The notes under the pieces are model-generated. The model was not told the origin of the DNA. It saw only the letters and a program-made list of their open reading frames with translations, and ran no database searches. The position numbers were made by a program, and so were the translations under genes. Shown piece by piece: positions 6,234-27,869 of a DNA stretch of 27,869 nucleotides. Source of the DNA: a virus; IMG/VR virus record IMGVR_UViG_3300027801_000126, positions 1 through 27,869 of that record. One strand, 5' to 3'. The number at the start of each line of letters is the position of its first letter. The stretch's first letter is position 1.

Positions 6234-7826
6234 ATGATAGAAACGCTTGAACAGCCTCAAGTTAATGTTAACGATTCAGATGTTAAACAATTATTATCTA
6301 GATACGAACACGCTAAAACAATTAAACATCAATGGCATGACACTTTTGAAGAGTGCTATGAGTATGCGTTACCTCAGAAAGAAAGTTTTTTTAATGAAAC
6401 TCAAGGAAGAAGACGCACTGATAGAATATTTGATGAGACCGCAGTAGTAGGTGTACAGGAATTTGCTTCAAGATTACAAGCTGGTATCGTACCAAACTAT
6501 GCTAGATGGGCTGATTTTGTAGCGGGAACAGACATTCCACCTGACCAAGCTAAAGAAGTAAATGAGATGTTAGACATGGTGACAGACTATGTGTTTGAAA
6601 TATTACACTCATCTAATTTCTCACAAGAAGTACACGAATCATTTTTAGATATGGCTTTAGGAACAGGAGTCTTACTGGTTGAAGAAGGAGATGCTGTTAA
6701 CCCTATAAGATTTAGAGCAATACCTTTGCCTCAAGTTTGGATAACATCTGGACACGATGACAAAGTCGACCATGTTTTTAGAAGACGAGTAATTCGTATG
6801 AAAGAATTAGCAATTGCTTACCCAAATGCTGTTCTTAGCGACAAGATGATGACTGACATGAACAAGAATCCAGACAAAGAATGTGAAATAATAGAGGTTG
6901 TATACAGAAATTACTACAATACTAAGGAAGAAGAGTACAAATTTTGTGCTATTTCTAAGATGTATGAGCATAAACTGTACTCAGATACGTTCAAAGGTAG
7001 GGGTTCTAACCCATATTTGATCTATAGATGGAGTAAATGTGCGGGTGAAGTCTATGGTCGTGGACCATTAATGAATGCTTTGCCAGCAATTAAGGTAGCA
7101 AATCTTACAATTGAAATGATTTTAGAAAATGCACAGATGTCTATCTCTGGTATGTATCAGGTTGAAGACGATGGTGTTGTCAATGTAGATAACATTCAAT
7201 TGATTCCGGGAACTATAATTCCTAAAGCTGCTGGCTCACAAGGATTAACTCCTATAGCTCCAGCTGGAAGTTTCCAAGTATCAGACTTAGTTTTAAATGA
7301 CATGAGGGCTAATATTAAGAAAGCCTTATATAATGATATGCTAGGAAATCCTAATGCTTCAACTCCAATGTCAGCTACTGAGGTAGCAGAAAGACAAGCA
7401 GACTTGTCACGTCAAATAGGTTCAGCATTCGGTAGATTGCAATCAGAATTAGTTAATCCTTTGCTAGAAAGAATCGTTTATATTCTTAAGAAGCAAGGAA
7501 GCATTAGTCTTCCAAAGATAAATGGTAAAGAAGTAAGAATTGTATCTACTTCTCCTTTAGCACAAGCTCAACAACAGAGCGATGTAGCTACTATTGATAG
7601 ATTTTTAGGCATGATACAAGGCAGAGTAGGTCCAGAACTTATGAATATCTTAATAAAACAAGATGAAGTAGCTAAGTATGTGGCTAAAAAACTAGGGATT
7701 CCAGAGAATTTAATACGTTCTAAGGAAGAAATGCAAGAAGCTGCACAACAAATGCAACAGATGATGCAACAACAACAGCAGCAACAACAACAACAACCTC
7801 AGGAGGAAGCACCTCCCGAGCAATAA
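6234..7826 (+). CDS. Portal (head-to-tail connector) protein, T7 gp8-like
   Basis: A 530-aa protein, close to T7 gp8 (536 aa). It forms the dodecameric portal through which DNA enters and leaves, and on which capsid and tail assemble. The N-terminal segment (DVKQLLSRYEHAKTIKHQWHDTFEECYEYALPQ) with the DRIFDETAVVGVQEFASRLQ stretch, the RWADFVAGTDIPP region and the C-terminal 'NPNASTPMSATEVAERQADLSRQIG' helix are typical of the T7-like connector family. The C-terminus ends in a Met/Gln tract with ten consecutive Gln codons (7767-7796), then an acidic Pro/Glu tail. AGGAG at 6222-6227 serves the start. Confidence 0.93.
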   Translation: MIETLEQPQVNVNDSDVKQLLSRYEHAKTIKHQWHDTFEECYEYALPQKESFFNETQGRRRTDRIFDETAVVGVQEFASRLQAGIVPNYARWADFVAGTDIPPDQAKEVNEMLDMVTDYVFEILHSSNFSQEVHESFLDMALGTGVLLVEEGDAVNPIRFRAIPLPQVWITSGHDDKVDHVFRRRVIRMKELAIAYPNAVLSDKMMTDMNKNPDKECEIIEVVYRNYYNTKEEEYKFCAISKMYEHKLYSDTFKGRGSNPYLIYRWSKCAGEVYGRGPLMNALPAIKVANLTIEMILENAQMSISGMYQVEDDGVVNVDNIQLIPGTIIPKAAGSQGLTPIAPAGSFQVSDLVLNDMRANIKKALYNDMLGNPNASTPMSATEVAERQADLSRQIGSAFGRLQSELVNPLLERIVYILKKQGSISLPKINGKEVRIVSTSPLAQAQQQSDVATIDRFLGMIQGRVGPELMNILIKQDEVAKYVAKKLGIPENLIRSKEEMQEAAQQMQQMMQQQQQQQQQQPQEEAPPEQ

Positions 7827-25806: not shown

Positions 25807-26219
25807 AAAATTATTTTAAAGTTACAAACAAAGAAGAAATATTATTTAGAAACGTTTTAAATAAAAATAAAAATAAAACATTTGTTAAAAGAACTTTAGA
25901 TTCAAAAGGATTAAGACTTAATCTTCAAGGTGGAGGTAAAGCTTCTATACTTACTTCGAGTGATTATAATAAAGTATACCCAACTGTACAACAATTTCAT
26001 AAAAGCGGTAAAGCATCCCTTAAAGAATTAAAACCTGAATATGCTTATAAGCGTTCTCTGTTTCAAGGTAATCAAATAACTTTACCAATTAAAAAAGCAA
26101 CAGGTCTATTAGGAAACTTTCAATCAAATAAAAATGTTGATAGGGCTATACAAAACGACCAAAGCAAAAAGTTTTCTCAATGGCTTTCTGGTTCAGAGTA
26201 TGTAAGGAGAATGAAATGA
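25803..26219 (+). CDS. Hypothetical basic protein, 138 aa
   Basis: The start overlaps the previous stop (ATGA) with GGAGGA about 7 nt upstream. The product is Lys/Asn-rich and AT-rich in codons ('LNKNKNKTFVKR', 'LNLQGGGKASILTSSDYNK', 'EYAYKRSLFQGNQITLP') with no signal peptide, membrane span or familiar motif. It lies between two membrane-protein genes in a gene-dense lysis-like segment. Its style recalls the Lys-rich proteins of the TerS-TerL interval, but I see no shared motif. Function unknown. Confidence 0.55.
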   Translation: MKNYFKVTNKEEILFRNVLNKNKNKTFVKRTLDSKGLRLNLQGGGKASILTSSDYNKVYPTVQQFHKSGKASLKELKPEYAYKRSLFQGNQITLPIKKATGLLGNFQSNKNVDRAIQNDQSKKFSQWLSGSEYVRRMK

Positions 26220-26650
26220 TACCAATGGAATTAGTAAGCATGGGTGCAAGTACAATACTAGGTGGAGTACTAGGCATCATGGCTCAGAAAGCCAAAGATA
26301 AAGCTGACGAACAAAAGAACTTAATGGCACGAGCTGGTTTTGTAGCTGAACAAGCAGACAAAGCAAGAGACGTTACAGATTCTTTTACAAAAAATACTAG
26401 AAGATACATTGCATTAATGTGTGTGTTTTCAATTTTAGTATTACCTAAACTTGTATTTTTTATTGCACCTGAAACTCCTATTTATGTAGGTTATACCGAA
26501 GCAGTTATGGAAGGATTTTGGATATTTTCATATTCAGTAGATGTTACACAATGGAAACCAATGACTGGTTTAATCATTACGCCTTTAGATACGCATGTCG
26601 TATCATCAATAGTAGGATTATATTTTGGAGCTTCGACAGTTAGGAGGTAG
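26216..26650 (+). CDS. Probable holin-like membrane protein, 144 aa
   Basis: The start is set at ATG 26216, which overlaps the previous stop (ATGA) and has AAGGAG (26204-26209) 6 nt upstream; an earlier in-frame ATG at 26180 lacks support. An N-terminal hydrophobic or amphipathic segment (MGASTILGGVLGIMAQKAKDK) is followed by a charged helix, a transmembrane helix (RRYIALMCVFSILVLPKLVFF, about 62-82) and a final hydrophobic stretch (THVVSSIVGLYFGAS). This layout is like holin proteins of phages and gene-transfer agents in the three-segment class. A hole-forming function is inferred. Confidence 0.65.
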   Translation: MIPMELVSMGASTILGGVLGIMAQKAKDKADEQKNLMARAGFVAEQADKARDVTDSFTKNTRRYIALMCVFSILVLPKLVFFIAPETPIYVGYTEAVMEGFWIFSYSVDVTQWKPMTGLIITPLDTHVVSSIVGLYFGASTVRR

Positions 26651-26652
26651 AA

Positions 26653-27255
26653 ATGATAGCAAGAATAAAAGAATGTTTTATACTTCTATTGATAGCTATA
26701 TTAATTTACGGAATAACAGATGCTATTGCAGATGTAACTAGCACAGGTTCTAAGTCTAATACCCAGAGCAATTCAACAGGAACCAACACTTTAATCGACA
26801 CATACGAATCAGCAACCACATATCAATCAGGCTCATCTTCCAGCACTACCACAAATAACGACACCAACAATAGCACGAATACTAAAACAGCCGTAAATCC
26901 AGCCTCAGCGCCTTCTATGTCTGTCTACGGACAGTCGAGTTGCGTAATTCCATTGGCAGCTGGTGTTACAGTCATTGGTTTCAGTGGTTCATTCGGTTCA
27001 TATTATGTTGATCCAATGTGCGAAATGCGTTTGTCAGTTTCTGTATTAGCTAAACTTGGTATGAAGGTAGCCGCAATAGCAAGAGCCTGTATGGATGAAA
27101 GCGTCTGGAAATCCATGATGAACGCTGGTTCGCCATGTCCTGTGGATGGATTGATAGGTGATAAAGCTAAAGCAAGATGGAAAGAAATAGGTGGATTTCA
27201 TAGGACTAAGCTAACAACTTATAATGATAAGAGAAGCATGGTATGGAACAACTAG
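26653..27255 (+). CDS. Secreted Ser/Thr/Asn-rich protein with Cys-rich domain
   Basis: AGGAGG (26642-26647) lies 5 nt before ATG 26653. The N-terminus is a signal peptide or anchor (hydrophobic 9-26, possible cut after DAIA). Residues about 28-85 are low-complexity Ser/Thr/Asn/Gln, then a conserved-looking domain with Cys at 97, 123, 146 and 162: 'YGQSSCVIPLAAGV', 'DPMCEMRL', 'GMKVAAIARACMDESVW' and 'AGSPCPVDGLIG'. I recall this domain from other marine phages, often beside another secreted protein as here; no function is known to me. Four Cys after a signal peptide suggest export to an oxidising periplasm, so it may act on the host envelope. Confidence 0.7.
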   Translation: MIARIKECFILLLIAILIYGITDAIADVTSTGSKSNTQSNSTGTNTLIDTYESATTYQSGSSSSTTTNNDTNNSTNTKTAVNPASAPSMSVYGQSSCVIPLAAGVTVIGFSGSFGSYYVDPMCEMRLSVSVLAKLGMKVAAIARACMDESVWKSMMNAGSPCPVDGLIGDKAKARWKEIGGFHRTKLTTYNDKRSMVWNN

Positions 27256-27272
27256 TAAGAGAGTAAGAGAGA

Positions 27273-27869
27273 ATGAATAAGTTATTAATATTAATTGCTC
27301 TCTCTCTCAACATATCATATGCTGATACGACTGACAATCTTTTATCTCAAGACTTTACTAATGGATGGACAGGTACTAACCAGTCGTCAAGACATGGTAC
27401 AAGTACAATAGCTGGGGTAGATGGGGGTAATGTGGAATCTACTGTCTCCCTCAGTGACACCCTTAATGCAAGTCAAATCAATGGTGGATGGACTTCAACG
27501 CTTGGTGCTGACATGTGGGGTTGGAATCAATACGACCAAGAAATTAAAATGACTCAGACTATAACTGATGCAAACGGCACAGTTACTACGCAGATAAGAG
27601 ATGTAGCTATTCCAGGTTGCAGTGGATATAACTGTGGTAGTTACTCAACTTATACAGATAGTTATACACAGGGTATTAACAGTCAATCAGATTATGATAT
27701 CACTGTAAGATTTAGCTTTGATGAGAGCAGTAATAGCTCAGGTCATCAAGCAACAGACTTAAGAAACCCCACGCTAACCATAGAGCATAGCTTATTAGAT
27801 ACCTCTCAGGTAACTGAGTTGAAGACAATGAGTGAAACGGTATATAATACAGTAGAAGATATAGAACTA
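27273..27869 (+). CDS. Secreted protein, 3' end cut by window edge
   Basis: An open frame from ATG 27273 to the last base, 199 codons with no stop. It begins MNKLLILIALSLNISYA, a clean signal peptide with a predicted cut before DTTDNLLSQDF. After that it is a Gly/Thr/Ser-rich beta-type protein with 'FTNGWTGT', 'GADMWGWNQYDQEIKMTQTI', a Cys pair (C116, C121 in 'PGCSGYNC') and a Tyr/Ser/Thr stretch. The upstream spacer is a tandem GTAAGAGA repeat (27255-27270) with a weak ribosome site. With the previous gene it forms a secreted-protein pair at the end of the virion operon. It is perhaps a beta-sandwich envelope or adhesion protein; not recognised by name. Confidence 0.65.
   Translation, partial: MNKLLILIALSLNISYADTTDNLLSQDFTNGWTGTNQSSRHGTSTIAGVDGGNVESTVSLSDTLNASQINGGWTSTLGADMWGWNQYDQEIKMTQTITDANGTVTTQIRDVAIPGCSGYNCGSYSTYTDSYTQGINSQSDYDITVRFSFDESSNSSGHQATDLRNPTLTIEHSLLDTSQVTELKTMSETVYNTVEDIEL

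Follow-up and report, generated by a model that had tools for sequence, protein, structure and literature searches.

A three-gene module of marine phages with predicted exported and membrane-anchored proteins and an exchangeable carbohydrate-binding-like head

Phages of marine bacteria carry an essentially obligate three-gene module, A-B-C, which is undescribed as far as our tools reach. Genes A and B close the window, the whole 27,869-nt stretch of DNA analysed here. On our preferred reading, to which we give a probability of about 0.38, the products would form a late envelope complex that grips strain-variable glycans and aids opening of the outer envelope at lysis. In a wider sense, A-B-C is tentatively seen as a novel inner-membrane-anchored complex with an exchangeable glycan-binding cartridge, shared as a unit among unrelated families of phages infecting the ocean's most abundant bacteria; it might sense or grip a variable surface glycan from within the cell, timing or driving release or locking out rivals. 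SAR11 bacteria and their phages predominate in surface seawater, and to our knowledge little has been described of how these phages act on the host envelope. The module hints at a mechanism, so far undescribed, by which marine viruses would work on the host surface late in infection, and it raises the questions of which host glycan belongs to each head and what loss of the module does to lysis or superinfection.

Results

The sequence-only reading of this window had proposed two adjacent signal-peptide genes at its end, and both open reading frames were found there (Table 1). AGGAGG lies directly 5' of the ATG of A and 17 bases separate the end of A from the start of B; B is cut off by the end of the IMG/VR record, which is an entire contig of 27,869 bases. 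A second locus (L256), 98% identical over the shared part of B, completes it (L256:543-2006, 487 aa). Under a crude signal-peptide rule that requires a basic N terminus, a hydrophobic stretch and small residues where cleavage would occur, 50 of 57 A and 38 of 48 B proteins passed, versus 13 of 372 other reading frames of at least 150 aa in the same loci, which bears out the proposal; among the 18 window genes tested, A and B alone passed and the 16 others failed. Neither protein has a second hydrophobic stretch beyond the signal peptide, and a lipobox scan found none on A and one in only some B proteins, with none in most loci, the window included. In one group of B proteins (L022, L050, L069, L021 and L028) the signal peptide contains LASC, which resembles a lipobox, so B may be lipid-anchored in some phages.

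Table 1. Features at the right-hand end of the window.
Feature	Position	Strand	Basis or remark
XhlA-like 60-aa protein, tail-anchored helix	25624..25806	+	phrog_37133, unknown function; XhlA resemblance by eye
Holin-like membrane protein gene directly upstream of A	26216..26650	+	Homologues in 23 phage records
Gene A, exported four-Cys protein, 200 aa (PHROG 20531, unknown function)	26653..27255	+	Open reading frame, PHROG
A signal peptide, residues 1-26, cleaved between TDAIA and DV	26653..26730	+	Hydropathy and AxA rule; cleavage site inferred
A Ser/Thr/Asn/Gly region, residues 27-86	26731..26910	+	Near-invariant columns in 57-sequence alignment; predicted disordered
A four-Cys domain, residues 87-180, beta hairpin and helices	26911..27192	+	Alignment, model; no PDB match
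Gene B, first 199 codons, cut by record end	27273..27869	+	Open reading frame in frame to last base
B signal peptide, residues 1-17, cleaved between ISYA and DTT	27273..27323	+	Signal-peptide rule; site inferred
B head, carbohydrate-binding-like jelly roll, residues 18-175, swappable	27324..27797	+	Fold of a relative's B (L013); swap analysis
B linker start	27798..27869	+	Rest of linker, C-terminal helical domain and gene C lie past record end

The four-Cys domain reported for A likewise held: the cysteines stand at positions 97, 123, 146 and 162 in the window protein, 56 of 57 relatives likewise carry four Cys beyond the signal peptide, and the four are among the 19 invariant columns of the 57-sequence alignment. 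The Ser/Thr/Asn segment, described earlier as a linker, is indeed present but appears to be more than a plain spacer because it is conserved, with Gly60 invariant in the same alignment, Q38, N40, G43, S44, N45, T46, I48, G50, Y51, Y57, S61 and T66 kept in at least 90% of rows, and a consensus of QxN..(S/T)G(S/T)NT.I....Y...TTYQSGSSS.TTT or QTNxSGSNTAIEGGY...TTYQSGSSS.TTT. An AF2 model of A, of modest confidence (pLDDT 64), predicts a beta hairpin and helices; it had no meaningful PDB match, and its BFVD matches were uncharacterised phage proteins.

A third gene, C, lies just past the window's end (L256:1999-2223, 75 aa, ending SDNPLSN) and encodes a single N-terminal membrane helix and a coiled coil. 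The N-terminal flank of the helix is more positive than the C-terminal flank in 59 of 66 C proteins, predicting an N-in/C-out topology, and 62 of 66 end in Asn-Pro-Leu. In 58 A-led loci with at least 3 kb downstream, B is present in 54 and C in 57; among independently fetched B-led loci, A precedes B in 62/62 and C follows it in 67/67; a search from the window's own B found A in 26/26 and C in 24/24; and a C-led search, with one C sequence as query, found B in 46/46 and A in 20/20. Co-occurrence of the A and B families, chosen beforehand as the test that could overturn the proposed exported pair, was thus found in each of these searches. The pair is conserved and strictly linked in marine phages, but the unit is three genes, C being equally linked.

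Variants occur at the second and third positions. The C-position matches of HTVC115P and of L077 belong to a different helix-coiled-coil family that lacks the NPL end and has a relative, phrog_20984, in HTVC031P. In the Roseobacter phages CRP-810 and CRP-207, and in MW202675, an exported protein, B', stands between A and C; profile comparison found it unrelated to B, and it has no recognisable head. We rejected the 'lysozyme' labels of CRP-810 gp51 and CRP-207 gp73 (L009:9198-9620 and L010:3292-3873), which are likely misannotations of C-type proteins with the helix, coiled coil and NPL end, and the GenBank label TonB in MW202481 looks like a composition effect.

The earlier view of the second protein as a Gly/Thr-rich beta protein proved incomplete, as B comprises a carbohydrate-binding-like head, an acidic linker and a C-terminal domain. 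In the AF2 model of a relative (L013), the jelly-roll head is mostly at pLDDT 80-98, the acidic linker (residues 216-433) is predicted to be disordered (pLDDT<50) and the C terminus to be helical; Asp and Glu commonly make up 25-45% of B linkers. Foldseek matched this head to the sugar-recognising Fbs1/Fbs2 (E 5.6e-8), TmCBM61 and CBM22, with E values from 5.6e-8 to 1e-5 at sequence identities of 10-18%, and Pfam CBM_4_9 matched 3 of 48 B proteins. By its model, then, the head has a fold like those of solved sugar-binding domains, a likeness that does not prove binding. The jelly roll is common to carbohydrate-binding modules (CBM_4_9, CBM22, CBM61) and the Fbs1 sugar-recognition domain; unlike these, the B head continues into an acidic linker and a C-terminal domain that is new.

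Near-identical modules exchange the head precisely. The DNA of two loci, L051 and L063, runs at 97.5% identity through A and up to about codon 28 of B, shows no relation over the head, and returns to 97.3% identity from about codon 248 of B through C; similar exchanges, in other backgrounds, separate L044 from L037, L060 from L075 and L076 from L048, and because the backgrounds differ, at least three separate swaps are indicated. A, the C terminus of B and C co-vary, the identity of A correlating at 0.84 with that of the B C terminus, 0.61 with C and 0.38 with the head. The swaps have the pattern of a specificity domain under selection, and host glycans may be what drives it. The exchange is as clean as that of a tail-fibre tip, yet nothing found places the head on the virion. 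A tblastn search with two head types matched B proteins or nothing, with no tail fibre in cultured phages, and we rejected the idea that tail fibres share it.

We regard as very improbable the alternative in which A and B are minor structural proteins whose N termini would act in membrane association or assembly and not in export. Tail fibres often have jelly-roll heads and the A-B pair comes after tail-fibre genes in the window, but both proteins have typical signal peptides, which makes a non-exported virion role unlikely, as well as an even Cys count and a membrane-anchored third partner, and the module also occurs far away from structural genes, near polA or primase/nrdA.

At least 597 IMG/VR contigs, some longer than 100 kb, encode A (by one pattern), in podophage and T4-like contexts. 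Annotated phages with A amount to 11 records, which comprise SAR11 podophages, the myophage Mosig, an Autographiviridae phage, two Roseobacter phages and two spring-water phages; the cultured phages Mosig, HTVC023P, HTVC202P, HTVC033P and Baldr carry the module. In a quick tree of A the contexts are interleaved, but many forks are weak and branches long, and we base no claim of transfer on it. A bacterial origin of A was rejected, since all 24 matches in the genome collection are MAG or single-cell contigs, 20 of them with the same flanking genes as phage loci and four unassigned. The culturable Achromobacter phage phiAxp-2 encodes a distant A homologue (L288:44598-45155, minus strand, E 2.8e-7 within that stretch); next to it lies another exported protein, rich in Gly and Asn (45216-45710), and neither B nor C was matched in the vicinity. 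The suggestion of an undescribed system survives: A-B-C matched no family of known function beyond weak coiled-coil hits and the likeness of the head to carbohydrate-binding domains, the PADLOC models of anti-phage defence did not match the module, and the open-licence pelagiphage papers describe curli genes and not A-B-C, which is weak evidence of novelty.

The pair had been placed at the end of the virion operon; it in fact follows a holin-like gene, where virion genes give way to lysis genes. This holin-like gene overlaps the preceding gene by ATGA, and a homologue lies at most 3 kb upstream of window-type B in 18 of 22 loci. Several of the 23 records are annotated beside or as peptidase M15; relatives occur in SAR11 and Roseobacter phages, and those of the Skadi phages are labelled peptidase M15, yet the sequence looks membrane-type. 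Across loci the module often adjoins holin-like, XhlA-like, endolysin or spanin (Rz/Rz1) genes. In T4-like pelagimyophages it lies between Rz/Rz1 and a D gene, primase and nrdA, and the corresponding place in HTVC008M holds Rz, a small lipoprotein, D and primase without the module; in many loci of HTVC023P-type phages it sits beside polA and not beside lysis genes, some having an M15 endolysin downstream. Podophages with the window's holin family often lack the module, so it is not essential for lysis, and its absence from close relatives makes it an accessory insert, found most often in lysis regions.

This neighbourhood, together with the predicted shape of C, raises the possibility that C is a divergent inner-membrane spanin and A or B its outer-membrane partner, the membranes fusing after endolysin action. 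Like the Rz/Rz1 spanins (PHROG 739, 812), C is predicted to have an N-terminal membrane helix and a periplasmic coiled coil, and 16 of 46 C proteins weakly match an Rz-like spanin PHROG (best 4.5e-6), but coiled coils cross-match easily. We nevertheless find this reading improbable. Eight T4-like loci (L014, L015, L020, L023, L026, L036, L038 and L081) carry canonical Rz-like and lipoprotein Rz1-like genes upstream of A-B-C (phrog_739, 1.4e-12; phrog_812, 6.4e-7), close relatives do without the module, and unlike Rz the C protein is partnered by a lectin-like exported protein and a four-Cys protein, with no outer-membrane lipoprotein in most loci, the window included. The architecture of a unimolecular spanin (T1 gp11) is also missing, as A and B lack the second hydrophobic stretch. 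Because Rz/Rz1 coexist with A-B-C, an exclusive spanin role is disfavoured, and we rejected it as the sole function.

GenBank labels the C protein of S28-C10 as DUF2730, the family of the Mu gp25 releasin, likewise a small one-helix protein near lysis genes. No C representative tested matched Pfam DUF2730, even at E 10, and the family is absent among the 25 listed. The topology of Mu gp25 is N-out/C-in (PMC9239132), unlike the N-in/C-out orientation predicted for C by charge bias, and on both counts this identity was rejected.

Discussion

Action of the module at the host envelope, as proposed for the pair, is plausible, and adhesion, exclusion and lysis control are not separable by sequence. 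We infer that A-B-C form a complex, are expressed late, bind glycan and act at the lysis stage, as follows. The three products would assemble at the envelope of the infected cell, with C in the inner membrane and its coiled coil and NPL tail predicted, from sequence and modelling, to be periplasmic. A and B would be exported by way of their signal peptides, A serving as a disulfide-stabilised partner, and the C-terminal domain of B would dock with A and/or C. The flexible acidic linker could allow the head to extend from the inner membrane as far as the glycans of the host envelope. Made late, together with the lysis genes, the complex would hold strain-variable envelope glycans and assist at lysis in opening or stripping away the outer envelope, acting in parallel with the holin, the endolysin and any Rz/Rz1 present, with recombination exchanging the head to match host glycans. 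Against this, it is not evident that surface glycans can be reached from the periplasm while the outer membrane is closed, and the target of the head could be something other than an envelope glycan. The loci beside polA, the phages that keep the holin without the module and the headless B' of Roseobacter phages also weigh against it.

Close in probability to this lysis aid, though still on the unlikely side, is superinfection exclusion, in which the exported lectin-like head occupies a receptor glycan or its periplasmic precursor. Such a head would exclude other phages and keep progeny off debris, a role that T5 Llp plays for a protein receptor. Head swapping fits a varying target and the module is accessory, missing in close relatives; there is also the precedent of T5 and BF23 Llp, which are non-homologous, do the same job and lie beside the receptor-binding gene (PMC4728585). 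Like the module, Llp and Cor are phage-made envelope proteins with target-matched variants; unlike it, T5 and BF23 Llp are single small lipoproteins without lectin head, linker or membrane partner, and no sequence relation of the module to either Llp or Cor was found. A lipoprotein in 16 loci does weakly match the Cor superinfection-exclusion family (E 0.0069). The module, however, travels with late and lysis genes and not with receptor-binding genes, most B proteins lack an outer-membrane export signal, the two head types tried gave no tail-fibre match in cultured phages, and matches of A to exclusion families in PHROG are weak and driven by the signal peptide.

Less probable still is that the products are surface proteins that make infected cells stick together or to new hosts, a role that the conserved Ser/Thr/Asn/Gly segment of A and the exported lectin-like head might fit. 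'Sibling capture' has been proposed for pelagiphage curli operons (PMC7029224, PMC9599517), a precedent for adhesion, but clumping was not seen with the curli-bearing phage Melnitz (PMC9004378). Pelagiphage curli/type VIII secretion genes (CsgF, CsgG) resemble the module in having exported products and in recurring in unrelated SAR11 phage families; in contrast, module loci differ and hold no CsgG/CsgF-like gene. No CsgG-type pore gene recurs beside the module, nor does it contain another outer-membrane exporter, and neither A (to curlin in particular) nor B matched a curli family; identity with the curli/T8SS system was rejected on the lack of CsgG and CsgF.

Small genes accompany the module in many loci. 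The lipoprotein noted above, 52-55 aa with extra Cys, adjoins A, B or C (L021:3327-3488, L028:3314-3475, L034:9110-9265 and 13 other loci). A 55-aa protein rich in Cys and Asp/Glu (MTKKCKNCNCDCHCDGDIHGDVYGACTCQNCKC...) recurs immediately 5' of A in HTVC023P-type phages, in L022, L049, L054 and about 16 other loci. Lastly, a membrane coiled-coil protein (phrog_20984, no NPL) followed by a small two-Cys protein (phrog_24646; L119:6436-6801 and 6818-7000) adjoins the holin of HTVC031P and others and recurs, as 'C cl6', in many loci; this pair is a candidate non-canonical spanin pair of SAR11 podophages.
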